Part shown: positions 36,453-64,000 of the stretch, piece after piece
Layout: every line of letters starts with the position of its first letter
Position numbering within the stretch: the first letter of the stretch is position 1
Assembly (NCBI GenBank): GCA_020152595.1
Contig: JAIGNY010004296.1
Coordinates: 238,501-302,500, forward strand
Direction of reading: 5' to 3'
DNA length: 64,000 nucleotides
DNA from: Chiridota heheva
Lineage: Eukaryota; Echinodermata; Holothuroidea; Apodida; Chiridotidae
Notes under the pieces: generated by a model
Told to the model about the DNA's origin: nothing
Database searches by the model: none
Seen by the model: the letters and a program-made list of their open reading frames with translations, nothing else
Program-made: the position numbers and the translations under genes

Positions 36453-36791
36453 CAGTGTTAAGCTCAAGTTTTTGTTACCTGTCCATAGATCTTTCAAGGA
36501 AACACTGACTGGCGAAACATGTTCATATTACAAGAAAGGCAAGAACAGGAACAAAATAGTGTTATCAAATTTCAATGTTTGTATCTAAATTTACAGTTGC
36601 ATGTATTTTGTGTAGTAGAAATGACTAAAATGACTGTTTTTGTTTTCTCAATGAAATATTTTCTGAATATTTTAACTAAATGCTTTCATTACTTTGTGAG
36701 ATATGTTGAAAACAAACAAGCAAAGGCAAAAACATAACCTCTGTCCAACCTTGTTGGCAATGAGGTAATGATATTATACAGTAGTACTTAC

Positions 36792-39700
36792 CCGTGGTTT
36801 CAGATTTATCTTTGGTCTTGGCACTGGCTGCTCTATTTTACCATTTTCTTCGAAGACTGAATCCCAACTCGTTTCTTCATACTCTGCAGAATCCGTTTCG
36901 CTGCTGAACTTCCAACCAGTCGATGAATCACCTTCTGAAGAATCTTTTGGAGAATCAAAAATATGTTTCAAAATCTGGTCCCTCAACCTTGCCTCTAACT
37001 TGTCATTCCCATCATCTTGGCTGCCACTTTCCTCCAGGCTATTTGAACCGCTTTTTGACTTGCCATCCCCACTCAGACCAATATCGGACTCCTGTATTGA
37101 TTCAGAATTTGAGCTCCCCAATTCAGCGGCAAAACTGTTCACTGCAAAAGGATTCTCGTCCCCATTTTCTACCTCATCACCGTACAAATAGTTTATAATC
37201 CCTAGAGATTGCTTGGATGACTCAAACCCTCCATTCCCATGCCCCCCATCCACATTAACATTATTTTCCGAATATGATTCAATCATACTAGGGGAACTTT
37301 CATCCAACTTGCCTTCTGAATCAGACCCCTGATCTGAACTTCCTTGCTCAATATTTTCTTGTCCTAAGGAGTAACTATAGGAGGGAGATAAATCGGCACT
37401 TTCACTATTTTTGGAATCTAGATCTACAAAATCACTCAATTGAGAATCAGCCCCAACTTCTCGATCACTAGAGAACAGGTCAGAATAACTATTTTCATAA
37501 CTATTTTCATTCTTACTTTCCGACCGATCAAACCAACCTTCTAAATTCCGATAGCTCTCACTACCACTGAGAGATGAGTCATAATAACTACTCTCACTTT
37601 GGTCGTTTTCACTTTCCGATTGATCAGACCAACTACCATCAGAGGAACTCTCACTACTGCCAAACAGCAAACTACTACTTTGCAGAAAACTGTCATCCTC
37701 ACTTTTACTATCAGAGCTGTCCCAATCAAGAGAGCTGCTTGGGCCGCTACTATCATCCACACTACTAGAATAGTAACTGCTTTCAAGGATACTCACAGAA
37801 GACAGGTTAAACCAACTACCATCAGATGAACTCTCACTACTGCCAAACAGCAAATTACTACTTTGCAAGAAACTGTCATCCTCACTTTTACTATCAGAGC
37901 TGTCCCAATCAAGAGAGCTGCTTGGGCCACTACTATCATCCACACTAATAGAATAGTAACTGCTTTCAAGGACACTCACAGAAGACAGGTAACTGCTATC
38001 AAGGCTACTTACAGAGGGCAGGTGACTGTCTGAGTTTTCAAGGTCACTACTACCGCCAGAGCTACTCAAAGGGTAAGTTGTTTGGACAGGTGATTCTACA
38101 TAAGGAAAACGGGCCACTGAGATGTCATGAGCACTTACTTCATGAGTGACACCCTCCCCCTCATTTTCTGAAAGAATCTTAACCTTGCCCTGTTCTGCAA
38201 ACTTACCTTGGCTAGCATCATCATCATCATCATCATCATAAAAACTACTTTCCTCGCTTTCAAAATGCCAATTTGTACCCCCCTCCCCCTCTTCATCACT
38301 GTAATCTGAATCCCCCCAACTGTCAAAGCTTTGCTCTCCATCCGTGACGTAATCAGTGCTCATGGTACTTTCACTATCAAGTTCATTCAAACTCTCCCAA
38401 AAATTCAAAGATTCGCTGTAAGAATCATCTGTGCTGTAATCAGGAGAGCTTTCCTCCGATTGCAAGCTTTCCCCAGTGGTAAGCTTTCCTCTGATAGAGA
38501 GCTTTCCTTTGGCAAGGTCGTGGAATTATTGTCCGTCATATTTTTTGCCATTGCTGTCACTGATTGCTTGCCTTTGTCCGGAGGATTAATCGGCTCAAAG
38601 GTTTCTTCCGAATCTTTCGCCAAATATGTGTTACTACCAATAATGTTATTTGCATTTGCCAATTGGTCTGGTTTAAGACCTTCAAGCTGCTGCGGATCAA
38701 AATTAGGCAAATTGAGAGGGTTTACATTTTGGATTTGACCTTGCTGTACAGGAGTGTACACTGGCATTCCTGCAGCCTCTTCTGGCATTCCTGCAGCCTC
38801 TTCTGGCATTCCTGCAGCCTCTTCTGGCATTCCTGCAGCCTCTTCTGGCATTCCTGCAGCCTCTTCTGGCATTCCTGCAGCCTCTTTTGGCAAACTTTGT
38901 GTTCCTAGATTGTTGATGGCAACATTTTGTACAGAATTAATACTCTCTGGTGCATTTATAGCATTTTGACCAGCATTTTGGGGGATCCCACTTTGTACAG
39001 GTAAATTATTTCGGGGAACTACAGGAAGAGCCTGAGCTTCTACTTCTTGGGAAGGAGCATTTTGGGAGATCCCATTTTGTACAGGTAAATTATATTGGGG
39101 AATTGCCTGAGTGTCTAGTTCTTGGGAAGGAGCATATTGGGGGATTCCAATTTGTACAGGTAAATTATATTGGGGAACTACAGGAAGAGCCTGAGCATCT
39201 AGTTCTTGGGAAGGAGAATTTTGGAAGATACCATTTTGTACAGGTAAATTATATTGGGGAAGTGCTTGAGTGTCTAGTTCTTGGGAAGGAGCATTTTGGG
39301 AGATCCCATTTTGTACTGGTAAATTATATTGGGGAATTGCCTGCGTGTCTAGTTCTTGGGAAGGAACATTTTGGGGGATCCCACTTTGTACAGGTAAATT
39401 ATTTTGGGGAACTACAGGAAGAGCCTGAGCTTCTACTTCTTGGGAAGGAGCATTTTGGGAGATCCCATTTTGTACAGGTAAATTATATTGGGGAACTGCC
39501 AGAGTGTCTAGTTCTTGAGAAGGAGCATTTTGGGGATCCCACTTTGTACAGGTAAATTATATTGGGGTACTGCAGGAAGAACCTGAGCGTCTAGTTCTTG
39601 GGAAGGAGCATTTTGGGGGATCCCACTTTGTACAGGTAAATTATATTGGGGAACTGCAGGAAGAGCCTGAGCATCAAAACCTTGCGAAGGAGCATTTTGG

Positions 39701-40103
39701 AGGATCCCACTTTGTACAGGTGAAATATATTGGGGAACTGCAGGAAGAGCCTGAGCGTCAAAACCTTGCGAAGGAGCATTTTCGGGGATCCCACTTTGTA
39801 CAGGTAAATTATATTGGGGAACTCCCTGAGCTTTAAGACCTTGGAAAGGCACCTCGGAGAATATTCCCACCAACATCATTTTTTTCTGAACTATCCTGTT
39901 CTCCAGGGCCCTGAGAATTTGGGAGAGCCCCTCTGTTGGGTTTTGAATATCGGCTGCTGGAGGTAGCATGCCATCTTGTCCTATTATGTCTCCACCATCA
40001 GGAACATTTGCAATTTGATCAAGTGATGCTAGCTCTTTGATTCCTGTCTGTTCCACGGGTGGCTGGAATCCATATTCTCTATTGGCCACATCATATGGAA
40101 AGC
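36792..40103 (-). CDS. large exon of a secreted Q/P-repeat and Ser/Asp/Glu-rich protein
   Basis: The minus strand is open, apart from two single-base frameshifts, from a good acceptor (pyrimidine-rich, ending CCTGTAG|GC) to a consensus donor (CCACGG|GTAAGT). It enters in phase 1, matching the signal-peptide exon at 42,686-42,782, and leaves in phase 0. In order it encodes a unique start (FPYDVANREYGFQPPVEQTG), about 10 repeats of 25-28 residues of the type PQYNLPVQSGIPQNAPSQEL, six MPEEAAG heptads, a linker, and then about 550 residues extremely rich in Ser, Asp and Glu (e.g. DDSSGPSSSLDWDSSDSKSE). Such SxE-rich acidic proteins are typically disordered, phosphorylated and often calcium- or mineral-binding; that role is inferred. 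The shifts lie at 39,532-39,535 and 38,471-38,474, both in four-base G/C runs. I recognise no named family. Confidence 0.82.
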
Positions 40104-42685
40104 CTACAGGTTGAATAAAAAAGAATAACACAAGGAAATATTATACAAAGCGACCAAAAAATGTGCTATTTATCTGCCTGTATATAACTGCATCAGATTG
40201 CAATTCACAAGTACTGTAAATCTTTCCACAGGCTAGCTGCTGTAACACAGTATTTCAAAAAATTATACTTATCTCAGAATCTAATTTGAATTCAATTTGA
40301 ACATCTTTTATCCTCTTAATATTTGAAGGTCTATGGATATCCTTAGTTTGATATTCCAATATTTGAATTTGAACAGAACAGTCTTTGATGTTATAACCAA
40401 TACAAATTAATTCATTATCTGCACACAAAAATTGTTGTCTTTGCAAAAAATCAACCTGCAGTTTCGTGGAACATTCTAAAACTTATTTTGTGCATATTTC
40501 ATAGTTAAAATCAAATATGCGGTGACTAGGCCAAGATGGCCACCAAAACCTGATATGGAAAAACTTATATCCTGTCGTGGTAGCAAATAGCTAAAAAGCT
40601 TTGTTCAAGAAAAGATGCACATGATATATGTTTGACTTATCATATATAAAATGTAAGTATATCAAAAAAGAAAGTTTATTTTCTACAACATGTAAAACAT
40701 ACAGAAGGATGATGGGAATAATCTTCATACAGCAATCCCAATGTGAACCATACGGAGGGTCCCTCTTTACAATGGAACTGTCATACAACCAGCAATCACT
40801 AATAAAGCTGGCATCAGTACGACGGTACCACTACCACACAGTAACACACTACACAGGAACCGAGGGAGTTGGCCTACTACCTACTATCAAATTTTGATCG
40901 CTAAAATTGTTAAGTTACTTGCCAGTACAAAAACCTGTTTTAAAATATAATTTTGATTGAAAAACCCCCTTCTTCCCTAATGGTTTACCTGCATGAAAAA
41001 TTTAACTTCATACTTTTTATTTAAAACGCGGCCATCAACTCAAGCTCTTTTTGCCTAAAGCCAACACAGAATTGAACAAATCGAACCACTAGCATGTGTT
41101 CTAATAATAACAAAGCTTGGATGTTGAAAGTATCAACAAGATCTGACAACTATACATAACATATACCACATGGTGAATGTAAAAGAGAATATTAACCATA
41201 TTGGTCACCATTATTCATGTACACAGGCGGAATTTGAGAGGGAAATTGAAAGGAAGCCTCCCCCTCTTCCTTCTCCACACAGACACACTATTCCAGATTT
41301 TGTACCTTTTGTGAGATTATTTTCTGCATCTTAGCATGATTTTGTCCCCCCAAACTTTTGACTTTGCCCCACTTTCGGTAGGAAAATTCCTCCCACTTTT
41401 CATGTTGGTATGCGCCATACAAGGCTAAATTGGTCAGGGGTAAGGGGTATGGCAATTACTGAGCCAAAATATATTAATTTTGTTTGAACAAAATATTTTG
41501 TTACAGCCCTACAATTTAATTGACAAAACATTTATCGTCTTAATTTCAGTCATTTTAATAAATGAAGACCCCTCCCGCCCCCCCCCCCCTAGTAGATGGA
41601 ATCGCTGAGCCCATGCAGTATTCATTTTGAAAAGGCACTTTTGTAATATTTGTTTAAAAGTGTCCGCAAATTCCATCCCAAATTCTCGAACCTTTGACAG
41701 TAATTGAGATGAACTTTTCATTTTCAAAAGAGGCACTTTATTCATTTTTGTGTGGGGCACGTTTCCCTACCCTCTCCGCTGCTACACTTATGTATCGAGC
41801 ATCAGATGGACATGAAATTCATTAAAACAAATATGAAATAAATGCCTGAAGAACAATTATTGACTAAGCTAGACTTTCTTTTGGCTGTATAGGCCTGAAT
41901 TCTTTTCCCAAATATTTTTTGACCGTTTTGCCACATATATTTTCTTTCGCTCAAATGATATTTTATTGCATATCAAACATGCTCCTTCATCGTATTATGT
42001 GATTTAAACGTTTTCTCACGCTGGTGATTTGTTGTCTTTTGAGGAAGATCGTAAGTGTGAATATCTGAAAACTAACACTCGCCAGCATAATCTGGCATAA
42101 GCTGTGCGTTACTTATGTACGCCCATCGTGAGTCAGACGGACAAAGTTGTCAAGGTAAACGATTAGCTCCGAAAATCATTCAATTTTATTCTTTTTTGTT
42201 GTATATAGGAGATAAAAATGTATTTTGTAAGTTTACATTATTGTCATTAAATTGGTAGCTCAACAGTACTAATTTTATTGATTTTGCCATCATAATTTGT
42301 AAAAGCGTTGGTCGTATGATAGGTCCAAATGAAAATCCCAGTGGAAGTTTTTTTTTTTGTACATGATCCTCCCTTAACGTCCCCTACGGAACTGCAAACA
42401 ATGGCAAGACTTCATAATCTTGAACCAGGTACATCTCAGTTGTCTCACTCATTATTGCAAGTAGTGTGTAGCATGTAGGGCATACTGAATGAGATGTTTA
42501 TCTCACTAACTACTACTTGACCCTCGTGGAAAATCTAACAAAATGTAATAGAATTGAGGTGCAAACAGAAAGAGAAAATATTTAGCCTAAAGATCAAGGA
42601 AAATGGTGGAATGCAGTTGAAATTCCTGTCTTTTAATTTTTTTTTTTATCTAACTAAGGATGTTCGAGAATAAAATGGAGCTCAC
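40104..42685 (-). other. probable intron of the acidic protein gene
   Basis: The interval is bounded on the minus strand by a donor, AATG|GTGAGC, and an acceptor, CCTGTAG|GC, with matching phase (1). Inside, I see no long open frame and no recognisable element. Short C runs and T runs occur (41,578-41,589; 42,348-42,358). Confidence 0.6.
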
Positions 42686-44635: not shown

Positions 44636-46885
44636 TCAATCTAGTAAATGTCCTAAATGGTTCAACGATGATGTCCGGTCGGCCCGAACAGAACGCCGCA
44701 AATATGAGCGTAAGTGGAGAAAACCCCTTAGTGATACTGATCGCTTGAAATGTCTTGAGCAAAATATAATTGTAAATGAACTTATTGTTAAATCCAAAAC
44801 AGAGCATTTCAAAGGTGTTTGGCAAATGCTGATGCAGATATAATGTACCGTACAGTTAATTCACTTCTCAATAGTTCCACCAAGGCTTCACCAATCTGCC
44901 GCTCAAATGAAACTCTCAGTAATAATTTTGCCAATTTGTTTACTGAGAAAGTGGCAAAAATAAAGTCTGAACTTGACGTTGAATGTGTTGATGTATATAT
45001 CTTCTCTTGATACCAGTACACAATGTAATGATGATGTATTTCTGCTTGATTCTGACGATAATTGATAGTTTACATATGCACAGTACTGATATCTTTGCAA
45101 ATTTCCACCCTGTAGATGAAGCTGAGATTCGACATATAATTTCTAAAATCCCAAACAAGACAAGTTCTCTTGACCCACTGCCCACTTGGCTCTTGAAGGA
45201 ATTTGTTGACATAGTAGCTCCTAGAATCATGTCTCTTGCAAATAATTCATTTAGGTCTGGTTGTTTTCCATCCATTCTTAGGAACGCAATTATTTCTCCT
45301 CTGATCAAGAAGTCCACCCTCAATCCGGACGTTTTGAAAAATTATCGACTTGTCTCCAATCTTCCCACCCTTGGCATGATCCTTGAATATCCAGCAGTCT
45401 CTAGGTTTAATAAACAGTTTCATTCAAAACATCTTACTGAAGATTTTCAATCTGACTACAAACCGGCACATAGCACTGAAACTGCTTTATTGCGTGTTCA
45501 GAACGATATATTAAATGAGTTAGATTCGGGTAGAGTTGTTTTACTTGTACTTCTAGATATGTCTGCAGCCTTCAATACCATTGACCACACTATTCTTATA
45601 AATAGGCTTCAGTGTGAGTATGGTATCGGAGGTTGTGTTTTAAACTGGTTTAGATCTTATCTCAGTGATCGCAAGAGTTCAGTTAGTATCTCTGGTAGTT
45701 ATTCTACTCCCATCCTCTGAAATATGGTGTTCCCCAAGGATCTGTTGCAGGTCCTCCGATTTTCAATGCCTATTCGCAGCCTGTTACCCGTATTTTCAAA
45801 CTCTTCAATGTTGCTTACCATATATATGCTGATGACACTCAGCTATATGTTAGCTTCGATCCTAAAAAGCCGGGTGATAGGGAAGCTGCCCAAGTTCGCT
45901 TGTCAAATTGCATTGCGGCGGTTAAAGGCTGGATGCTTCATAACAAACTTAGACTTAATGACACCAAAACTCAATTTTTGATCATTTTATCTAAAAAACA
46001 TATGCATTCAATCCAGTCCATTGATTTGAAGATCGGTGGGTCTGTGATTGTTCCTTCATCATCCGTTACAAATTTAGGTATCATGTTTGAACCTTGTATG
46101 AATATGAATTCCCAGATCTCTACAATATGTCGTACTGTTAATTTTCATTTGCGTAATATTGATAGAATCCGGCGGTACATTGATCGAAATACTTGTGCTC
46201 ATGCAGTGCGATCTCTCGTCCTTTCTCGGCTGGATTATGGCAACTCCGTACTTGGTGGTATATCACGTGAAAACCTTCAACGCTTGCAAATCGTGCAGCG
46301 CGCATGATTTTTTTTTTGTTGGTAGACGTGCAAGCGCCCTCCCTCCCCCCTCCCCCCACTCTTCCTCTTGCGTGTTCTTCATTGGTTGCCCATCCAGCAG
46401 ATAATCGATTTCAAGATCATACTGCATGTGTACAACTGCATTAAAAAAAAATGCGCCTTCATACCTTCAAGATTTGCTGCATATTTATGACGCGTTGGTT
46501 TAAGATCCAACAAGGATGTCACTCGCCTTATGGTGCCAAGAACTAATCGTGTCAGTGGGGACTGCGCCTTTTTCTGTTCTGGGACCACGTTTGTGGAATA
46601 ATCTACCTATTGCAATCCGTCAGGCTCAAACTGTTTATACTTTTAAGAAGCCTTTTAAGACTCATCTTTTTCCTACTGATTTAGTTTTACGATATCTATA
46701 ATATTTAATTTCTTGTTTTATTTATCTAGTTTTTGATTTTTACAAATTCTGTTATGCTTGTATATTGTTCTGCAATTCTTTTATTTTTTGATATTGTATA
46801 TTAAGAGTTTGTATTATCAATTCTATTGTAAAGCGCTTCGACTTATGGGAGAGGCGCTATATATGAATAAGTGCAATAATAATTA
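44636..46885 (+). pseudogene. CR1-like LINE remnant (reverse transcriptase)
   Basis: Broken plus-strand frames cover the region between endonuclease and RT (CPKWFNDDVRSARTERRKYE, 44,650-44,820). Next comes RT proper (AEIRHIISKIPNKTSSLDPL near 45,120; motif A LLDMSAAFNTIDHTIL near 45,555; motif C YADDTQLY near 45,830), then the thumb (KGWMLHNKLRLNDTKTQFL). The CR1-type C-terminus (RLWNNLPIAIRQAQTVYTFK) ends at about 46,701. The 3' UTR ends in a hairpin (AAGCGCTTCGACTTATGGGA then GAGGCGCT) and a short AT-rich tail. The endonuclease is missing, and frameshifts near 44,818, 45,005, 45,718 and 46,305 make it inactive. Confidence 0.92.
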
Positions 46886-47545: not shown

Positions 47546-50001
<2,456 letters not shown>

Positions 50002-50996
50002 TGTAACCCTTCTGTCAACTGTCAGATAGAAGAAAAGAAAATCCACTTGTATAATATACTGCTGACTTGTATTTCTTGAAACAGGTGTGTTATACAATAC
50101 ATGTACATGGTTCATTACACAACCGCAATAGATAAGGCATCTTAAATAGCATCTTCGATCATATATCACTGACTTGCTTCTGACTTTCACGTATATACAC
50201 ATTCCGACACACACACACACACATTCTGACTCACTCATGCACAAACACACATACTAACACTTCTCTCAGAAATGACCACACACAGCCATACGACCAAACC
50301 TCTCATTCCAACCTTTCTTCATGTAAACAGTTCACCAAGATTTAGATAAAACTAGCAATATAAAGAACTGTAACATGATATTCCTACTCTGCAAGTCTAG
50401 AGATCTCGTCCTTATGATGGTAGTCATGGTGACAGAGAGCTGACCAATCATGAGTAAGCATCACTATCTGTGTGCAATTAACATTGGGAAAATCCTAGGT
50501 TCCTACAGAATAATGGATCAATCCTATCATTAATTAAATTTCACCACCACAGTATTGCCTTCTCAGGAGTCTGCTATGGTGCCAATACACTACCCCTGTG
50601 TGACCAGGGAGCTGTTACTTTGATCAGTATAAACCTGTGGTATATAACATGTATGTGGTACTGCTGCTGTTTTAGAGACTGACGCTTGCTGTAGGTCTAG
50701 TTGGTAAATCTCTTGAAATATGAGTGATGAGCAGCAAGATAAACAACTTAAACTATATCATAAGTATCTAGGAGGTTACCTGGTTATATACATCTATAGG
50801 CAAAAGTAAATGGAAGCTACATACCTGTCAGATAGAAGAAAAGAAAATCCACTTGTATAATATACTGCTGACTTGTATTTCTTGAAACAGGTGTGCCAGC
50901 AGGCTCCTTGGCTGTTTCAGCTACCAAGCGGATCATTCCATTTTGCAAAGGGTTCTTTTTGCAATTATACCCCATTTTTATTTTAGACCCTTCACA
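50002..50996 (-). repeat. 3' LTR (left copy)
   Basis: In element orientation it starts TGTGAAGGGTCTAAAATAAA and ends AGAAGGGTTACA, so it has TG...CA ends. It matches 58,371-59,361 almost base for base. Within it a 71-bp segment occurs twice (50,019-50,089 and 50,825-50,895), separated by 735 bp. Confidence 0.93.
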
Positions 50997-51010
50997 CACT
51001 CCCCTGCGAG
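50997..51010 (-). promoter_or_regulatory. polypurine tract of the LTR element
   Basis: Directly before the 3' LTR in element orientation lies GCAGGGGAGTG. This purine-rich stretch is the expected primer for plus-strand DNA synthesis, and its position against the LTR start TGTGAAGGG supports the LTR border. Confidence 0.7.
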
Positions 51011-52167: not shown

Positions 52168-53757
52168 TTACAGCTGAATGAAGTCACACGGGAGAAGGAG
52201 ATTACGATGAACCACTCGAAGCCTTCCATTTCCCTTTTCGGGTTGCACTTCGTAAACGGGCGAGTCTGGATTCATCTGTTTCACAACCACATGTACCGCA
52301 TCTTCCCAAAAGGATTTTAACTTGCTTGGACCTCCCAAAGTGGCAGAGTTGCGCACAAGGACCCTATCGCCTACTTGAAGACCTCCACAGTTTGCTTTCT
52401 TGTCGTAATAGGTTTTGTTTTTGACCCCTGATTGTTTGGTTCTCTTGCTCGCAAGAGCGTAGGCTTCTTTTATTTGATTTCTCCATCTTTCAGCAAGTTC
52501 CGTGGGGTTCTTGGCTGTGGGCTCGTTCGAAGAAAGTCCAAACATGAGATCAACTGGGAGTCGTGGTGATCTTCCAAATAAGAGGAAGAATGGGGAAACC
52601 CCTGTGATGTCGTGGCGCGTACAGTTGTAGGCATGTACAACCTTGTTCAGGGAGTCCTTCCAGTTTGACTTTTCTGACTCTGGTAGTGTACGCAACATGG
52701 ATAGAAGTGTTCGGTTGTAGCGTTCAGCCTGTCCGTTCCCCTCTGGATGGTAAGGGGTTGTGCGTGATGACGAAATTTTTGAGTATTCGTGTAACTTCTT
52801 GAAGAGTTTATTCTGGAATTCCCCACCTTGGTCATGGTGAATCCGCTGTGGGAATCCAAACCTCAGAATAAAGTCATTGAAAATTTTGTCTGCCGCTGTC
52901 TTGGCTGACTTGTTACGGGTGGGGTATGCTTGGCTAAACTTTGTAAAGTGGTCGGTAATCACGAGTATGTATTCAAAGCCACCACTGCTTCTCTCCAAGT
53001 GCAGGAAATAAATGTTGATCAGTTCAAATGGTTGGGTTGTAGTGATTGGTAATAAAGGAGCTTTGTTTTGTCTATTTGGTTTCTTCTGCATCACACATGG
53101 GCAAACTTTCATAGTGAAATGCTCGATATCTCTTTGCATTTTCGGCCAGAAGAATCTGTCTCTTGTCAGAGCCGTCACTCTCTCAGATCCCAGATGTCCC
53201 ATTTCCTGGTGAAGTTCCTTATACACCAAATAGCGGAAGCATTTGGGGAGCACTAACTGTTTTCGCACTGTTGTCTGCCTGTAAAGGATACCATTGTCGT
53301 CCACCACCAGCTTCTTCCATTCACGCAACAAATTTAAAACACTTTGCGGGAGTTTTCTAATATTCCTTGGAGATGGTCTTTTGTTCTCATTCTTGAATCC
53401 CAATACTGGTCCAATGACTGGGTCATTGCGTTGAGCTTCCAAAATATCCTTGCGGGTGAAGGATTCAATAGGTGGAGCACCAGCTAATTCTGGGATGCTT
53501 GGATTCACGGTGACTGCCTCAATCCAAGCAACCTCTCCATCTCTCTGGGCCATTACTGCTTCTATCACTGCCGACATCTCTACAGGAGAAACTTCTTTTG
53601 TGCATTGGTCTGAGAAGTCGTCAATATTTCTTGGTAATCTAGACAAAGCATCTGCTTCTTTATTGGCTTTCCCTGGAAGGTAACGTATTGTGAAATTATA
53701 ATCTGATAGCTGGGCAACCCACCTTTGGCCAGTTGCATTGAGCCGTGCTGAGGTCAT
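52168..53757 (-). pseudogene. pol: pol, RNase H end and integrase
   Basis: This frame (529 codons) begins inside RNase H (ADALSRLPRNIDDF marks its end, about residues 35-48). It continues with the integrase zinc-binding region (HQEMGHLGSERV ... CPC, around residues 185-230) and the catalytic core, with Asp in ITDHFTKF, Asp in HHDQGGEF and Glu in GNGQAERYNR. The C-terminal module has VGDRVLVRN, and the frame ends LLLPCDFIQL. The catalytic triad is intact. It joins the preceding RNase H segment only through a one-base frameshift near 53,793, so it is not translated from the normal pol message in this copy. Confidence 0.93.
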
Positions 53758-54098
53758 GACATATGTAAGAGGGTTGTTATCTGTGAGAACTTAAAGAATG
53801 GTGCGTAGTACAAATAGTCGTGAAACTGTTCTGTAATGGCCCATTTGAGAGCCAAGAATTCCAGCTTTCCGGAGTGAAGATGATAATTGTTTTCCGCAGC
53901 GGATAGTGTTCTGGAGCCATATCCAATTACCTTCATGTCATTTCCTTGCTTCTGGTACAGAATAGCTCCGAGGCCTTCATTTGACGCATCCGTATATAAC
54001 ACAAATGGCAGGGAGAAGTCTGGGAAGCCCATGATTGGTGGTGTAATCATGTAATCAATCAGCTTACCCAATATTTGCCTGTGCCCTTCAGTCCACAT
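53754..54098 (-). pseudogene. pol: pol, RNase H start (frame-shifted segment)
   Basis: A 114-codon segment between two frameshifts. It contains the RNase H motif FVLYTDASNEGLGAILYQKQ and LKWAITEQFHDYLYY. A frameshift near 54,135 separates it from the RT segment, and another near 53,793 separates it from the rest of RNase H and integrase. In an active element all three would be one polyprotein. Confidence 0.9.
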
Positions 54099-54126
54099 TA
54101 CGGGAGATCTAGACGGTGTTTGGTTG

Positions 54127-56082
54127 TTACGTTTTCGTTCTGTTAATCTTGACGTTTTTCTTGAATTGTCTTTCAGGTATTCTTGCGACTTCGGGATCAG
54201 GTTTCCTCAACAGTTCATACAAAGGTTTGGCTATCTTTGAAAAATTTGGAATGTAACGACGGTGTGAGCCTATAAGTCCCAGAATTTGTCGCACTTCGCC
54301 AACTGTTTTCGGTATTCTATCTTTCAGAGCCACCAGAGCTTCGACATCGCTCAAATCTGCTCTGTACCCTTCAGCTGAAATGATTCTTCCAAGATATTTC
54401 ACTTCTTTTTGGAACAATTTACATTTGCTTGGACGGAGTTTCATTCCATATTGTCTCATCCTTTGGAGTACCGTTCGTAATCTTTCAACCTGTTCCTCGA
54501 AAGTAGAGCTGTACACTAGTACATCGTCTAAGTAGGTGATGCAAATGTTGTGGTTCAATCCTTCCAGTGTGTTTTCCATACATCGCTGAAATACAGCAGG
54601 TGCATTTTTTAAGCCAAATGGTATGCGGACCCACTCATAAAGTCCCCATGGATTAACGAATGCTGTGAGTGGTCTGCTACTTGGATGCATGAAACCCTGA
54701 TGGTATGCCTTACCTTGGTCGAGTGTTGAAAACCAGGTGTTGCCTCCAAGGGAATTCAGAACATCCTGCACCCTTGGTATCGGTGGTCGGTCAGGAATAG
54801 TTTTAGCATTTAAGCCTCTGTAATCAACACACAGCCTAAGGTTTCCGTCTTTCTTCCGAACACATACAAGTGGTGAGGAATAGGGCGACTGTGATTTTGC
54901 AATCCAACCCCTATTGATTAAATCAATCAAGTAATCTCGCACTTCTTTATGGAGGGGACGAGGTACTGATATATAGTTCTTCTGGACAGGCTGGTTATCC
55001 GTTAGTTGTATGTGCATCTGAAGATTCTCGATACAACCCAAATCACTATCATCACGTGCAAATGCCTCTGACTCCTCTCTTATCATTTCCTGAGCAATTC
55101 TTTGTTGTTCCTTGTTCAAATTTGTTAGGTCAACCGGTGGGTCCCACTGTCCCTGGGTAGTGTTTACATCAACAGAGCAGACATTTGCTGTCTCTACCTC
55201 TGGAACTTCCTTTGACAACCCGGGAAGAACAGTTTTTACTGACCGCAATGTTCCAAGTACTGTTCTTGCAGGAAGTACAATTTCATGGTTGCTGTCATTA
55301 CTAGAAGCTATTGTGATGGTACAGGATAAACCTCTAGGAATATCAACAAGTGTTTCGAAAATCTCAAGTCCTTCCGGCCATGGATGGGAGAGGTCAGGTT
55401 CGAACATGGCAGTCAGACTCTTTGGACTCCTCGTGTATACATGGCATTTCAAGAGATATGGTTGCCCCTTTGGTATTTTGACTGGCATCCGTGGTGATCT
55501 GACCAATGCAATGTCGTCATTAGCAGTTGACAAAAAATTGATAAGAGGTTTTATATTGATTGGTGCTACATTCCTGAAGGTATTCCTCATTGCAGATTGG
55601 AGTATAGAATCTTTACAGTTGTTCTGCATCAGTAATTCACTGATGACGTTAAATCCTATGATAGGCATGTCCATGGGTTCCCTCGTTATCAGGATGGGTA
55701 CAGTGAGTGTCGGAGTGTTTTCCTGATGAGATGCTAGCTGGAAAGTGGCTTCAATGTAGCCCTCGTAAGGCAACTCCATTCCATTCGCCATTCCTAGTTG
55801 CAAATCTTCTTCTAGCAGTTCCCTTACTGGTCTAATATTTGCCTTTGACGTAGTTTGGAGAAGCCAAGAATATGGGATAATTGACACTTGAGCGCCAGTA
55901 TCCCATAATGCTTCTGTAACTTTCCCATCAAGGAGACACTGAACTACACACTTCTTTCCAATGAGTTTAGTAAGTTTTGCATCTTGCTTTGGGGTGAGGA
56001 CATCTCCTGTCGAACATGTACTCTCTCCTGTCGAACATGTACTCACAGATACTCCTGTTAGTCCGGGGAACATTCCATTCAC
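54127..56082 (-). CDS. pol: pol, protease and reverse transcriptase
   Basis: A 651-codon frame. The aspartic protease motif [17 protein letters not shown] is near residues 58-75. RT follows: [17 protein letters not shown], motif [25 protein letters not shown], and the catalytic YLDDVLVYS. The frame overlaps the end of gag and lies in the -1 frame relative to it. It is open through the overlap ([15 protein letters not shown]), so translation probably uses a -1 frameshift. The nominal first codon at 56,082 is GTG and is unlikely to be a real start. The frame ends prematurely just before RNase H. Confidence 0.94.
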
Positions 56083-57143
56083 TAGGGCGACACCCGGTCC
56101 CCTTGGGGCGCCCTCGGTCCGTTTCCCTGTCTGCGTTGCTTACAACCTCTGGCTATGTGGTCATCCTTACCACAGATGAAACAATGTCTGCATTTATCCC
56201 CCTTGCCTTGTTCTCTACAGGAGGGACAGCCTCTCACTCTGTGCCTAAACTGTTGTCCAGGCAAATTGTTGTTTTTCTGCGGTTGGAGCGCAGCAAGCTC
56301 AGCTCTTACAATCCTTGTAATTTCTTCAGATATTTCACTTAAAGCCTTTTCTGGAAATGAGGCATGAGGGGTCGTTTCAACAGGACACACTTTCATTTTC
56401 TTGGTCCCCTTTTCAAGCTTCCGGGTCCTTACCTCCTCTTGGCTGGAAGCTAGTTTCACAGCCTGAAGAAGTTTCTCATCGGTTGTCTCTGTATCCTGAA
56501 GCAATGGCTTAAGGTCTTGTCTAATATTGTCATTTCTCAAACCTGTTTGAATGGAAGTAAGGAGCATCTGTTGAACTAAGGTGGGATCGTACACAACATT
56601 TGAATTAGGATTGCCATCTGCAGTGAGAATTTGTTGTTTGATATCAAGGACCCTTAGCAGGAAACTGTAAGCATCCTCACTGGCAGACTGGGTTGCCGTG
56701 GATAACTCTTGATACAGCTCTGTGGTGTCTTTTTCCTTGCAGTAAGATCGCAGAATTTGAAGCAGGGCCGTAAGAGACAAATCTGGTCTCCTTTCCAGAT
56801 AATTCTTAAGGTCCCCTGGGGCAATAGACCTGATGACTTCATCTTTAATTTCCTTGTCAGGATAATTTTCCCTCAATCCTGCTTCGATTTGATAGTTCAA
56901 ATTACCAAAGGAAAGTTTGTCTTTTTTGATTTGGGAGCCCAATTTGTCCTCTGATTCTGAATTCTCTTCGAAGGAGCAAAGGAGAAGTATCCTGGGATTT
57001 GCCTCTATGATCGGGTCAATGAGTATCTGAATGCTGGGATTCAAGATCTCATCACATACAAAGAAATGCACTGCAGAATTGTAAAGATCATTCCATCCTG
57101 TGCTATTGCATCCATTCTCAGGGACTGCGAGAAGGTTCTCCAA
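56082..57143 (-). CDS. gag: gag, with a foreign N-terminal end
   Basis: A 353-codon frame. From about residue 72 it has typical gag sequence ([36 protein letters not shown]). It ends with a CCHC zinc knuckle, [14 protein letters not shown] (CX2CX4HX4C), for RNA binding. The first 61 or so codons are the reverse strand of the viral L fragment, so the usual gag N-terminus seems to be missing or replaced. The true start may be internal. It lies downstream of the PBS, separated from it by about 1.2 kb. Confidence 0.88.
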
Positions 57144-58363
57144 AACACGTTTATCTCACACATGAGGAGAGAGGCCAACATCTATCCTCTGTCCCAGACC
57201 CTAGAGATCATAAATAGGCCAATTCAGTCGTTCCTTGAAGGTCACATTCGATTAGAACTAAGCGGCCTTTGGAAATCTCATGGCTATCCTATAATTGACG
57301 CTCAGGCATCAGCAAAGAATCTAATAGCTGAGTTACGGCATCCATCTGAGGTTGATTCGAGTGCTGCTTGGAGGGTTCGTTGTATGGCAGTTTATACGAT
57401 CTGTCGCAGTTACTACAGAGAGCACAGAATATGGCCACCAGTGTTCTTGTCATCGGAGGTCCGTGCAGACATCTTAGAATCTATTAAGACAAATCGCTGG
57501 CTTGAGCAAGAGGAGTATGGCTGGAATGTATTAGAATTCGGTCCAGTATGTTTCACCAAGTTCTTAGACTATGACTATCATGTAGATGCAATTGACCTGA
57601 TGGCGGACAAAGCTATTAATGCAGGGAGAAGCAGTAGCATTGACAACTTTGATAAGACAGCTTATTAGGCTTACTATGGGAGAGCTCCACCAAAGGGGAA
57701 GAAGAGAGAGACACGAGTCATACCCCAATTTCTGTTCCATCCCAACATTGCGGCAAAAGATATCATTGATGCAGTAGAGAATGACTCTCTGCCTGAGGAG
57801 TTTTATGAGATGGAGGCTGTGTTTAAGGAGAAAGAGGCTAAGGATTTCAAGGCAAGGGCGTTCTGTAAGCTCACCTACGAGATGAGGATGTATCAAGTCT
57901 CTACAGAGAAGAACTTAGGTGAACAATTATTCCCCTATGTCAAGTCCCAATCGATGACCAAGAGTGAGAAAGAGCTGATGGATTCCGTGTTACAAATGAC
58001 AAATCCATTTTCTGCCTGGTCTCCTATGCATATATTCTTCAATTTTGACTATAGGCATTGATGTCTCACGATGAGCTTTGCAGCACTCACTCCAACCTTC
58101 CAGGTCATTGATGACATGTTCGGATTCACTCGCACCTTTCAGTTCACGCAGATTCTTCCATACAGATGTCAACTGGTGATCCAGGATAGATATCGTCCTC
58201 CACTCTATGATGGTGACTACCCTCTCGACAGTGTACTGTCAATCAAGTCCATCTTTCATTGGATGGAAGGGTTACGTCAGAAAGGATGGGCTTTCTTCAC
58301 AATACTTATCCTGCAGCTGGTAGCTCGTGACCTACGAACACCGCTAACCGTCCTGGCAGGGTC
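56961..58363 (+). pseudogene. L: endogenous mononegavirus-like L polymerase fragment
   Basis: The plus strand, antisense to the retrotransposon, holds one continuous frame (about 465 codons) interrupted only by TAG at 57,666-57,668 and TGA at 58,059-58,061. Its sequence fits the RNA-dependent RNA polymerase of rhabdo- or chu-like negative-strand RNA viruses. It has a Trp/Glu/Asp-rich upstream block (FLDYDYHVDAIDLMADKAI), FCKLTYEMRMYQVSTEKNLG, a motif A region (FFNFDYRH, broken by the TGA) and the block EGLRQKGWAFFTI at 58,266-58,298. Similarity stops at the retrotransposon's PBS, just before where the family has its GDN active-site motif. The fragment is non-functional: it lacks both ends and the GDN motif and has two stops. 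Exact virus family is not resolved. Confidence 0.85.
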
Positions 58364-58367
58364 GCCA
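58350..58367 (-). promoter_or_regulatory. primer-binding site of the LTR element
   Basis: Three bases inside the 5' LTR, the minus strand reads TGGCGACCCTGCCAGGAC, which starts with the TGG complementary to a tRNA CCA end. A tRNA ending GGGTCG-CCA would match, and several arginine tRNAs have this kind of end, so tRNA-Arg is a possible primer (inference). The same bases form the end of the viral L reading frame on the other strand. Confidence 0.75.
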
Positions 58368-58370
58368 AAT

Positions 58371-59531
<1,161 letters not shown>

Positions 59532-59540
59532 TAAAAAAAA

Positions 59541-61165
59541 TGAAAAACAATGTCTCTAGCCAACAGATTATTTTAAAACCAAATATTTCGAAAACTCCTG
59601 TTTCCTTCTTCAGTGGTATGAAGTTAAATGACGCTAGAAGATAACAGCGATGATAGCTTGCACGTTAGCAAATTTCAAAGAGCGCCAAAAATCGTACGCG
59701 TAAAATAGTAGGCGCAAAAGGGGAAAAGCGCGCAGAAAAAAAAAAAAAACCGGCGCCAAAATGCGCTGAGGCACAAAAAAGAACTAATGAGACGAAGTGG
59801 AAACATTTTCCCTAAAAACAGAAAAAGGAGAAAGGTTATATCGACGATATCTTCATGATTTGGCAGCATGGCGAGGTTTCATTGCGGGAATTTATTGGTT
59901 TTGCGAATACGTATCACCCGTCCATTAAATTTACTGATGATTTTTCCAGGGATGAATTACCTTTTTTGGATGTTCTGGTCAAAATCCGTGAGGGTTCATT
60001 GGTTACCTCCTTATACACCAAGCCCACTGATAGTCATGCTTACCTAGTTTATAATAGCAATCATCCCCAACACACTAAGGAATCTATCATTTATAGCCAG
60101 TTTCTTCGTCTTAAGAGAATTTGTTCTGACCCTCTTGGTCTAAAGATCCAACTTAACGTTATGTCGGGGCACTTCCTTAAAAGGGGCTATCCCTTGAAAC
60201 TGTTAAGGAAATTCATGGACAAGGTTATTCCTGTCAATCGCAGTGAGCTTTTAAAGTATCGGATCAAGACTAAGACCGCACGCATTCCCCTCGTAGTTTC
60301 GCACAGCACACAGATACAGCCTCTCTTGAAGTGTATTAAATCGTCATGGGGGATATTGAAACACGCCCCAGAGGTTGGAGGAATTTTCTCTGCACCACCG
60401 GTTGTGGCACTAAAACAGCCGCCGAGTCTTAGGAATTTGTTGGTACGTTCCAACATATCGCGCAGGATGCCTGGACGAGGCAATAAACCCTGCAGGAAGC
60501 CGCGTTGTCAAATCTGCATGCACATAGTCACGGATGAGACGGTATCTCTCCCGAGGAATCACGTGATCAAACCGGGAACTTTTTCCTGTGATTCTTCTAA
60601 CGTGGTTTACTGCGTGATGTGTTCGAAATGTCCGGAAATTTCTTATATTGGTGAGACTGGAACCTCTTTCCGATTGAGGTTCAATAACCACAAGCAGTCT
60701 ATTCGCGATTTTGATGGTGACAGTGAGGGTTATCTCGTGGCAGGGCATTTTAATTTGCCTAGACATAAGTTGGAACATTTGAAGGTGGTTCTCATCAGGG
60801 GGAACTTTAGAAGCACGGAAGACAGAAAGTTGTTTGAATTACAATTTATGATTAAAACTAAGAGCCACATCCATGGACTTAATAAAGATCTGTCTTATCT
60901 TTCTCCTTCGTCTCATTAGTTCTTTTTTGTGCCTCAGCGCATTTTGGCGCCGGTTTTTTTTTTCTTTTCTGCGCGCTTTTCCCCTTTTGCGCCTACTATT
61001 TTACGCGTACGATTTTTGGCGCTCTTTGAAATTTGCTAACGTGCAAGCTATCATCGCTGTTATCTTCTAGCGTCATTTAACTTCATACCACTAAAGAAGG
61101 AAACAGGAGTTTTCGAAATATTTGGTTTTTAAAATAATCTGTTGGCTAGAGACATTGTCATTTTT
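59541..61165 (+). mobile_element. 5'-truncated Penelope-like element with long inverted ends
   Basis: A partial Penelope-like ORF (59,834-60,919) is flanked by inverted repeats of about 257 bp. The left arm is at 59,541-59,797 and the right arm at 60,906-61,165. The arms match almost throughout and share CAATGTCTCTAGCCAACAGA and CTCCTGTTTCCTTCTTCAGT (right arm with a C/A change). The left arm includes the inverted end of the ORF itself (its last codons and stop), so it arose as an inverted copy of the element's own 3' end. Penelope-like elements often carry such partial terminal repeats. Flanked by (TA)n on both sides. Confidence 0.9.
59834..60919 (+). CDS. Penelope-like protein: RT end plus GIY-YIG endonuclease (5' partial)
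   Basis: The frame opens exactly at the RT catalytic motif GYIDDIFMIW, so the fingers and most of the palm are missing. It continues through the RT thumb (SLYTKPTDSHAYLVYNSNHP). A Cys-rich linker follows (CRKPRCQICMHI, near residues 215-226 counting from the ATG at 59,855). The GIY-YIG endonuclease comes last (NVVYCVMCSKC, SYIGETGTSFRLRFNNHKQS, ELQFMIKTK, near residues 250-340). It ends with TAG at 60,917-60,919. The retained part has no stop or frameshift, so truncation happened recently or at insertion. The endonuclease suggests the EN-containing Neptune/Poseidon/Penelope group. Confidence 0.93.
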   Translation, partial: GYIDDIFMIWQHGEVSLREFIGFANTYHPSIKFTDDFSRDELPFLDVLVKIREGSLVTSLYTKPTDSHAYLVYNSNHPQHTKESIIYSQFLRLKRICSDPLGLKIQLNVMSGHFLKRGYPLKLLRKFMDKVIPVNRSELLKYRIKTKTARIPLVVSHSTQIQPLLKCIKSSWGILKHAPEVGGIFSAPPVVALKQPPSLRNLLVRSNISRRMPGRGNKPCRKPRCQICMHIVTDETVSLPRNHVIKPGTFSCDSSNVVYCVMCSKCPEISYIGETGTSFRLRFNNHKQSIRDFDGDSEGYLVAGHFNLPRHKLEHLKVVLIRGNFRSTEDRKLFELQFMIKTKSHIHGLNKDLSYLSPSSH

Positions 61166-63669: not shown

Positions 63670-64000
63670 GCTTATGTTAAGAAGGCATGCACATGTTAAG
63701 AAGGCATGCACATGTTAAGAAGGCATGCACATGTTAAGAAGGCATGCACATGTTAAGAGGCATGCACATGTTAAGAAGGCATGCACATGTTAAGAAGGCA
63801 TGCACATGTTAAGAAGGCATGCACATGTTAAGAAGGCATGCACATGTTAAGAAGGCATGCACATGTTAAGAAGGCATGCACATGTTAAGAAGGCATGCAC
63901 ATGTTAAGAAGGCATGCACATGTTAAGAAGGCATGAAACATGTTAAGAAGGCATGCACATATTAAGAAGGCATGCACATGTTAAGAAGGCATGCACATGT
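63670..64000. repeat. 19-bp minisatellite running off the right end
   Basis: About 17 near-perfect copies of AAGAAGGCATGCACATGTT. Rare variants include one missing base near 63,755 and GCATGAAACAT near 63,935. The array continues to the last base, so its full length is unknown. Confidence 0.97.

Follow-up and report, generated by a model that had tools for sequence, protein, structure and literature searches.

An LTR retrotransposon with a mononegavirus L fragment

The window, a 64,000-nt stretch of a contig from the holothurian Chiridota heheva, holds a 9.36-kb LTR retrotransposon on its minus strand. A fragment of a mononegavirus L (polymerase) gene lies between the gag and the 5' LTR of this element, on the opposite strand. 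The parts of the locus, in window coordinates, are as follows.

50002..50996, minus strand: 3' LTR, from local alignment to 58371-59361; on the plus strand it starts TGTAACCC and ends CTTCACA
50997..51008, minus strand: polypurine-tract-like stretch adjoining the 3' LTR, GCAGGGGAGTG in element sense, read by eye
52168..53790, minus strand: pol, integrase part, in a separate frame (Pfam rve and Integrase_H2C2)
53754..54206, minus strand: pol, RNase H part, in a separate frame, pol being broken here (Pfam RT_RNaseH_2 and RT_RNaseH)
54127..56139, minus strand: pol, protease-like and reverse transcriptase part (Pfam RVT_1, E 7.7e-35; gag-asp_proteas only below cut-off)
56082..56979, minus strand: remaining gag, lacking the start codon and the first ~108 codons (homology to gag-like proteins P0001-P0007; copies without L match up to 56979)
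56980..58349, plus strand: mononegavirus L fragment, antisense to the element (PF00946 in three collinear pieces; alignment to VSV L 680-713)
58350..58358, plus strand: nine nucleotides translated as V-L-A in the L frame, forming at the same time the leader-side end of the primer-binding site (PBS); putative microhomology for the join
58350..58367, minus strand: PBS, 18 nt, complementary to the 3'-terminal 18 nt (with CCA) of tRNA-Arg(ACG)
58371..59361, minus strand: 5' LTR, from LTR-LTR alignment, with a (TA)n tract outside
49690-50001 and 59362-59530: tracts flanking the element, the basis of the (TA)n observation below

Alignment of the two LTRs gave 15 mismatches in 991 aligned bases and one 4-nt indel, in agreement with the similarity of about 98.5% reported in a preliminary description of this DNA. 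Two LTRs, a PBS, a polypurine tract and a pol in the Pfam order RVT_1, RNase H, integrase are the features of Ty3/Gypsy (Metaviridae) elements. Judged by sequence, the element belongs to this group and not to Bel/Pao, on the basis of its Pfam RNase H models and of motifs that we take to separate the two. The same polypurine-tract-like stretch lay beside the LTR in all four fetched copies in which that end was found (L011, L012, L016 and L017). The window copy is not autonomous, with its pol split over three frames and its gag truncated; a 406-aa gag frame is kept in four of the eight copies that carry no L sequence (hereafter, L-free copies).

Each LTR contains a 71-nt repeat twice, identical in all four occurrences in the window (50019-50089, 50825-50895, 58388-58458 and 59190-59260). 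A (TA)n tract lies outside the 5' LTR in seven of ten copies (the window, L011, L012, L015, L016, L017 and the copy on contig C958 described below) and is absent there from L013, L014 and L019; these tracts perhaps reflect a target preference.

The viral fragment is 1370 nt long and reads as three stop-free pieces that matched PF00946 separately and in profile order: 56961-57665 (profile 322-464, E 4.6e-16), 57669-58058 (profile 476-579, E 1e-15) and 58062-58370 (profile 609-711, E 4e-10). Among solved structures the best matches were L chains of several types, presumably from different families, at corresponding places and with weak E-values, the best per piece being 0.0076, 2.5e-6 and 2.2e-5; they point to no single virus family. 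These matches confirm the earlier suggestion of a mononegavirus-like L fragment inside an LTR element. The limits proposed for it, 56961..58363, had to be redrawn: 56961 is only the limit of an open frame, and the bases there still belong to the element, 58363 falls inside the PBS, and the viral part is 56980-58349, with up to 9 nt (58350-58358) common to it and the PBS. The fragment ends just before what we take to be the place of the GDN catalytic motif. The source virus was not found by viral_contigs scans, which returned no match for any of the three pieces, or by a protein search with the first piece.

Other parts of the window hold unrelated features. Outside the 5' LTR, at 59571-61133, a 367-aa open frame lies between long inverted repeats (179 nt, 98%); it had no Pfam match and, from its motif, resembles a Penelope-type RT/GIY-YIG piece. 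Overlapping long open frames at 36774-40140 on the minus strand, Ser/Asp-rich and with QYNLPVQ-type repeats, had Pfam matches only below cut-off and are perhaps exons of a repetitive secreted host protein. At 44992-46307 on the plus strand lies a reverse transcriptase broken over two frames, with RVT_1 in both, which we would guess to be of non-LTR type. A 19-nt tandem repeat, in about 15 or more units, occupies 63674-64000, up to the window end.

Two insertions with the same junctions

We searched the searchable part of the assembly (1.1 Gb, 3744 contigs) for related sequences. With window positions 56700-58500 as query, 40 of 156 first-look candidates were scored, and the whole stretch was present in two places, the window and C958:441742-443543 (99%). 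In all 38 other scored matches, gag similarity ended at or before window 56982, and among the same 40 candidates matches on the PBS/LTR side began at or after 58349. A search with L alone gave two matches (both first-look candidates scored), and a Pfam-family search recovered the same two loci (five of five candidates scored), with no match in any of 14 control genomes. Homology to Mononegavirales L, with PF00946 in three pieces, is therefore found at two loci in the genome, and neither the L-only nor the Pfam-family search detected L outside this element family in the searchable part of the 1.1-Gb assembly.

The preliminary description had proposed looking for the fragment at the same two junctions in other copies of the element. 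The only other L copy found in the searchable assembly has both junctions, with identical bases at each. Its surroundings are different: on the one flank compared, similarity to the window was limited to 194 nt at 75%, 63 nt at 76% and 25 nt. This second hybrid also carries a 2.3-kb internal deletion. A viral piece inside LTRs with the same joins in two insertions, in different surroundings on the side compared, makes it most likely that the hybrid has gone through one or more rounds of copying via RNA, and its presence at another site with both junctions supports capture by template switching, as first suggested, over an independent integration. Both hybrids lack the gag start and leader, so the copying was probably done with Gag and Pol proteins supplied in trans. 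The earlier statement that the piece can now be copied with its element is better put as that it has been copied: with its broken pol and missing gag start, the window copy would need such help for any further copying.

Stop codons in the L frame differ between the copies, with two in the window and one, elsewhere, in C958. This pattern indicates that the frame was open at capture and decayed afterwards, and an open frame is what would be expected for capture from viral RNA. The 15 L differences between the copies fell 3, 5 and 7 at codon positions 1, 2 and 3; they give no sign of coding constraint and are too few to test it well. Across the element the differences between the two hybrids were uneven, at 2/409 in gag, 15/1371 in L, 28/1323 in pol and 33/982 in the LTR (Fisher tests: LTR against L, p 1.7e-4; L against pol, 0.045; LTR against pol, 0.068). 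In trees of nine copies (L018 and L019 left out) the pol parts of the hybrids were sisters (support 0.959) and their LTRs were not. This suggests recombination among element RNAs or family members after the capture, with unequal rates as a possible alternative.

The location between PBS and gag given in the preliminary description is correct, but the piece was not simply inserted there: it replaces the leader and the first ~108 gag codons, including the ATG. In all seven L-free copies compared (L011-L016 and L019), the L piece stands in place of 443-448 bp, and the base matching 56982 is separated from the PBS by 440-445 nt. In L017, kept out of this comparison by a match that ended 4 bases earlier, the distance from 56976 to the PBS is 450 nt, in line with the other L-free copies; L018 was also outside it, its readable part lacking the PBS. 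The last base common to the window and the L-free copies is 56979. The gag ATG, which lies 119-124 nt from the PBS in all eight L-free copies (L011-L017 and L019), is among the sequence lost from the hybrid; measured on L012, the loss amounts to a 123-nt leader and 324 nt, or 108 codons, of gag. Comparison with the L-free copies revealed no recognisable homology at the gag-side join. The marks of a LINE-type insertion are absent, in that element sequence is missing and not duplicated and neither join has a poly(A).

A minus-strand frame at 56082-57155 opens from gag into L. We rejected it as a gag-L fusion: it is open only through a single-nucleotide difference from the L-free copies, and the first Met of the frame is well inside gag.

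The primer-binding edge and a tRNA piece in L-free leaders

Three bases separate the PBS from the 5' LTR. We predicted the T-arm and acceptor string of the primer tRNA from the PBS and searched the genome for it. The string occurred in two places, with none in a reversed control, and both were tRNA-Arg(acg) genes by ARAGORN; the match identifies tRNA-Arg as the predicted primer of the element.

The right junction of the L fragment falls at the edge of the 18-nt PBS, at 58350. Here the L frame enters the PBS, its first nine nucleotides reading V-L-A, and the match ends there, at profile position 711 of the Pfam model in both hybrids. VSV L has VLA at residues 709-711, followed by QG (to 713; alignment E 0.011). 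A second aligned L chain has ILA at this place (E 0.25), and ILG is found in three of the five L chains displayed. Assuming equal codon use, nine random bases would encode V-L-A with a chance of 3.7e-4 and [VI]-L-[AG] with a chance of 1.3e-3. From the continuation into the PBS as in VSV L, from its low chance and from the conservation of these amino acids, which is not universal, we infer that virus and element shared the 9-mer GTCCTGGCA. In a retrovirus-like scheme this 9-mer is the complement of the last nine bases of plus-strand strong-stop DNA. The junction at 58350, the identity of the primer as tRNA-Arg and the tRNA sequence joined at the same edge in L-free copies (below) all place the join at a step of reverse transcription, and the PBS edge would mark plus-strand transfer.

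L-free copies carry a trace of their own at this edge. A search for PBS sites with the uncommon third base outward found nine places: the two hybrids, the L-free copy L030, in which a few bases are missing at the PBS edge and the 9-mer plays no part, and six short-leader copies, one of which (L033) is also rearranged further up. The common, longer leader has 35 nt more than the short one, bounded by the same 9-mer as the L join, and six of the seven L-free PBS sites with the uncommon base lack exactly these 35 nt. In two copies the inner 9-mer has one changed base. The extra 35 nt reproduce, in sense orientation, the primer tRNA-Arg from nt 21, with 31 of the first 33 positions identical and an alignment score of 62, against a maximum of 37 in 2000 single-base shuffles. 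This piece lies beside the PBS in, for example, L012 (7399-7433), and is also present in the other copies of L011-L016, in L019 and in others.

The anticodon ACG of the tRNA gene appears in the leader piece as GCG. A pattern allowing either base matched 20 places. The gene base was present in six, all of them tRNA-Arg(acg) genes, and the changed base in 14, of which 13 adjoined element matches. Reverse transcriptase acting on inosine-34 gives an A-to-G change at that position. The same change at the first anticodon position here suggests that the leader piece was probably copied from mature tRNA; one inherited point mutation would look the same. The remaining changed-base place (L039, C688:31501-34500, around 1360) belongs to a related leader whose tRNA-Arg piece, likewise with GCG, is longer and lies close to the gag start and not beside the PBS; it is perhaps a second tRNA capture.

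The 35-nt difference between leaders could have arisen by ordinary slippage between the 9-nt repeats, and trees did not settle whether it had a single origin (LTR tree, 16 rows, two of only 182-184 nt; gag tree, 14 rows, C958 and L033 having been dropped for short gag matches). Whichever leader is older, the PBS edge with its 9-mer is where two unrelated foreign RNAs joined this family.

Proposed routes of capture and their meaning

On balance we favour capture of a mononegavirus L RNA during reverse transcription, with strong-stop DNA landing on a 9-nt viral match and the product later being copied in trans. On the PBS side, the 3' end of plus-strand strong-stop DNA, its last 9 nt copied from the tRNA, would have paired with viral GTCCTGGCA, the viral 9-mer acting as a surrogate landing site instead of the element's own PBS complement. 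On the gag side, a second join showing no clear homology would have connected L to gag, and the leader and gag start would have been lost through the two joins. The hybrid would then have integrated, been transcribed from its LTR and been copied to a second site with Gag and Pol in trans. The preliminary description had already invoked template switching during reverse transcription; we retain this and refine it, in that the PBS-side junction points to plus-strand (second) transfer and not to two free jumps.

Two histories would give this same product, both using the match at the PBS end. In one, plus-strand synthesis would start straight on positive-sense viral RNA, either mRNA or antigenome, and then switch to the gag minus strand; in the other, the minus strand would first switch from gag to viral negative-sense RNA, and strong-stop DNA would then land on the viral part. 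Element RNA carries the piece antisense to L mRNA, in the polarity of the viral genome as first described, and either template is compatible with this polarity. Since mononegaviruses encapsidate their genomic RNA and not their mRNA, priming on positive-sense RNA deserves attention. These routes assume a retrovirus-like plus-strand scheme, whereas yeast Ty1 and Ty3 do not derive their PBS from the tRNA copy (PMC5371799). Minus-strand L extending beyond the 9-mer would also leave a 3' flap needing removal.

The tRNA join at the same edge in L-free copies suggests that the PBS edge is special, and we tentatively propose a distinct route, in which the tRNA-copied 3' end of strong-stop DNA primes on foreign positive-sense RNA by the 9-nt match. 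If true, this route would always put the captured RNA antisense and directly at the PBS, deleting the leader and gag start. Its product would be a non-autonomous, remobilisable element whose transcript, antisense to viral mRNA, would be a ready piRNA precursor, and the primer-tRNA piece of L-free copies would be the trace of a switch at this same point.

The main rival to landing by strong-stop DNA is ordinary copy-choice in and out: during minus-strand synthesis, reverse transcriptase would leave gag RNA for the viral genomic RNA and, by a second switch of RNA template, re-enter element RNA within the PBS. The polarity, the replacement and the two copies fit copy-choice equally well, and we nevertheless consider it rather unlikely. 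Its return jump would have to fall at the PBS edge by chance when anywhere in the ~445 nt lost would have served, at an edge marked out by joined tRNA sequence in L-free copies, and encapsidated genomic RNA would be a poor template. Copy-choice between an LTR element and an RNA virus is also the model put forward in two earlier reports (PMC6797480, PMC5177903).

In an event at the DNA level, viral cDNA or an older endogenous L would have been end-joined into an integrated element that later transposed. Such a hybrid could still be transcribed and copied, and short or no homology, as at the gag side, is presumably typical of end joining as well. We regard this origin as improbable: the exact PBS-edge join with its putative 9-nt match would be a coincidence, an old DNA donor is hard to square with a frame still open at capture, and we discarded another L locus as donor when searches of the searchable assembly found none. 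Independent viral integration into one element copy, or an assembly chimera, is scarcely tenable, since a second copy at another place has identical joins and its own 2.3-kb internal deletion, a chimera would require both loci to be assembly errors, and the missing element sequence, the lack of a target duplication and the second L copy rule out a one-off insertion with a target duplication of its own.

Events of this kind are already known. The aspects that look new are the base-level resolution of both joins, the copying of the hybrid to a second site and the proposed mechanism at the primer edge. Geuking et al. 2009 reportedly observed, in mouse, recombination of LCMV, a non-retroviral RNA virus, with the LTR element IAP by template switching; that was an acute experiment with an arenavirus and not a germline copy that spread. 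A similar structure is eBxnv-1 of Bursaphelenchus xylophilus, a nodavirus RdRp in a Bel/Pao LTR element, where a non-retroviral RNA-virus polymerase lies between two LTRs with a PBS and polypurine tract and copy-choice was proposed; in that case the virus is positive-strand, the copy described as single, the element degenerate with no gag seen, and the RdRp is said to keep its catalytic sites (PMC5177903). Here, in contrast, there are two insertions, with joins resolved against L-free copies. The present element is Ty3/Gypsy and the virus negative-strand, with an antisense piece that presumably ends before the catalytic motif.

In Aag2 cells, a CFAV NS2A piece lies between the LTR and gag of a Ty3/gypsy element, with virus-LTR hybrid reads, and copy-choice capture was inferred there too; in the available part of that report the recombination is called sequence-independent, and base-level joins, a PBS or spread of the hybrid are not given (PMC6797480). 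AeBunya1 of Aedes aegypti is likewise an RNA-virus piece in an LTR element, a full-length Pao-Bel element, and differs in element group and virus, with no join analysis in the part of the account available (PMC5497376). Bdelloid rotifer LTR elements with a paramyxovirus-like fusion protein also contain negative-strand virus sequence, which is a coding env-like ORF3 and not an antisense piece beside the PBS (PMC5408684). In the open-licence full-text literature, judged by title and abstract start, we recognised no PBS-edge join or leader tRNA piece, and found no case that combined L-free sister copies, remobilisation and a primer-binding-edge join.

The hybrid at two places suggests a route by which copying errors turn viral RNA into inherited, mobile DNA. 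Germline entry of non-retroviral RNA viruses is difficult to reconstruct when there is only a single old copy and nothing to compare it with; here the L-free sister copies, the two hybrid insertions and the host primer tRNA genes allowed both joins to be placed at base level. The joins point to plus-strand transfer at the PBS as a single identifiable step, and yield a general prediction, that such captures would abut the PBS, lie antisense and lack the leader. An element without its whole leader and gag start was apparently still copied once more, as the two insertions suggest, which bears on where the packaging signal lies. A mobile antisense copy of a viral polymerase gene in the genome may also be of interest for antiviral memory of the piRNA type.
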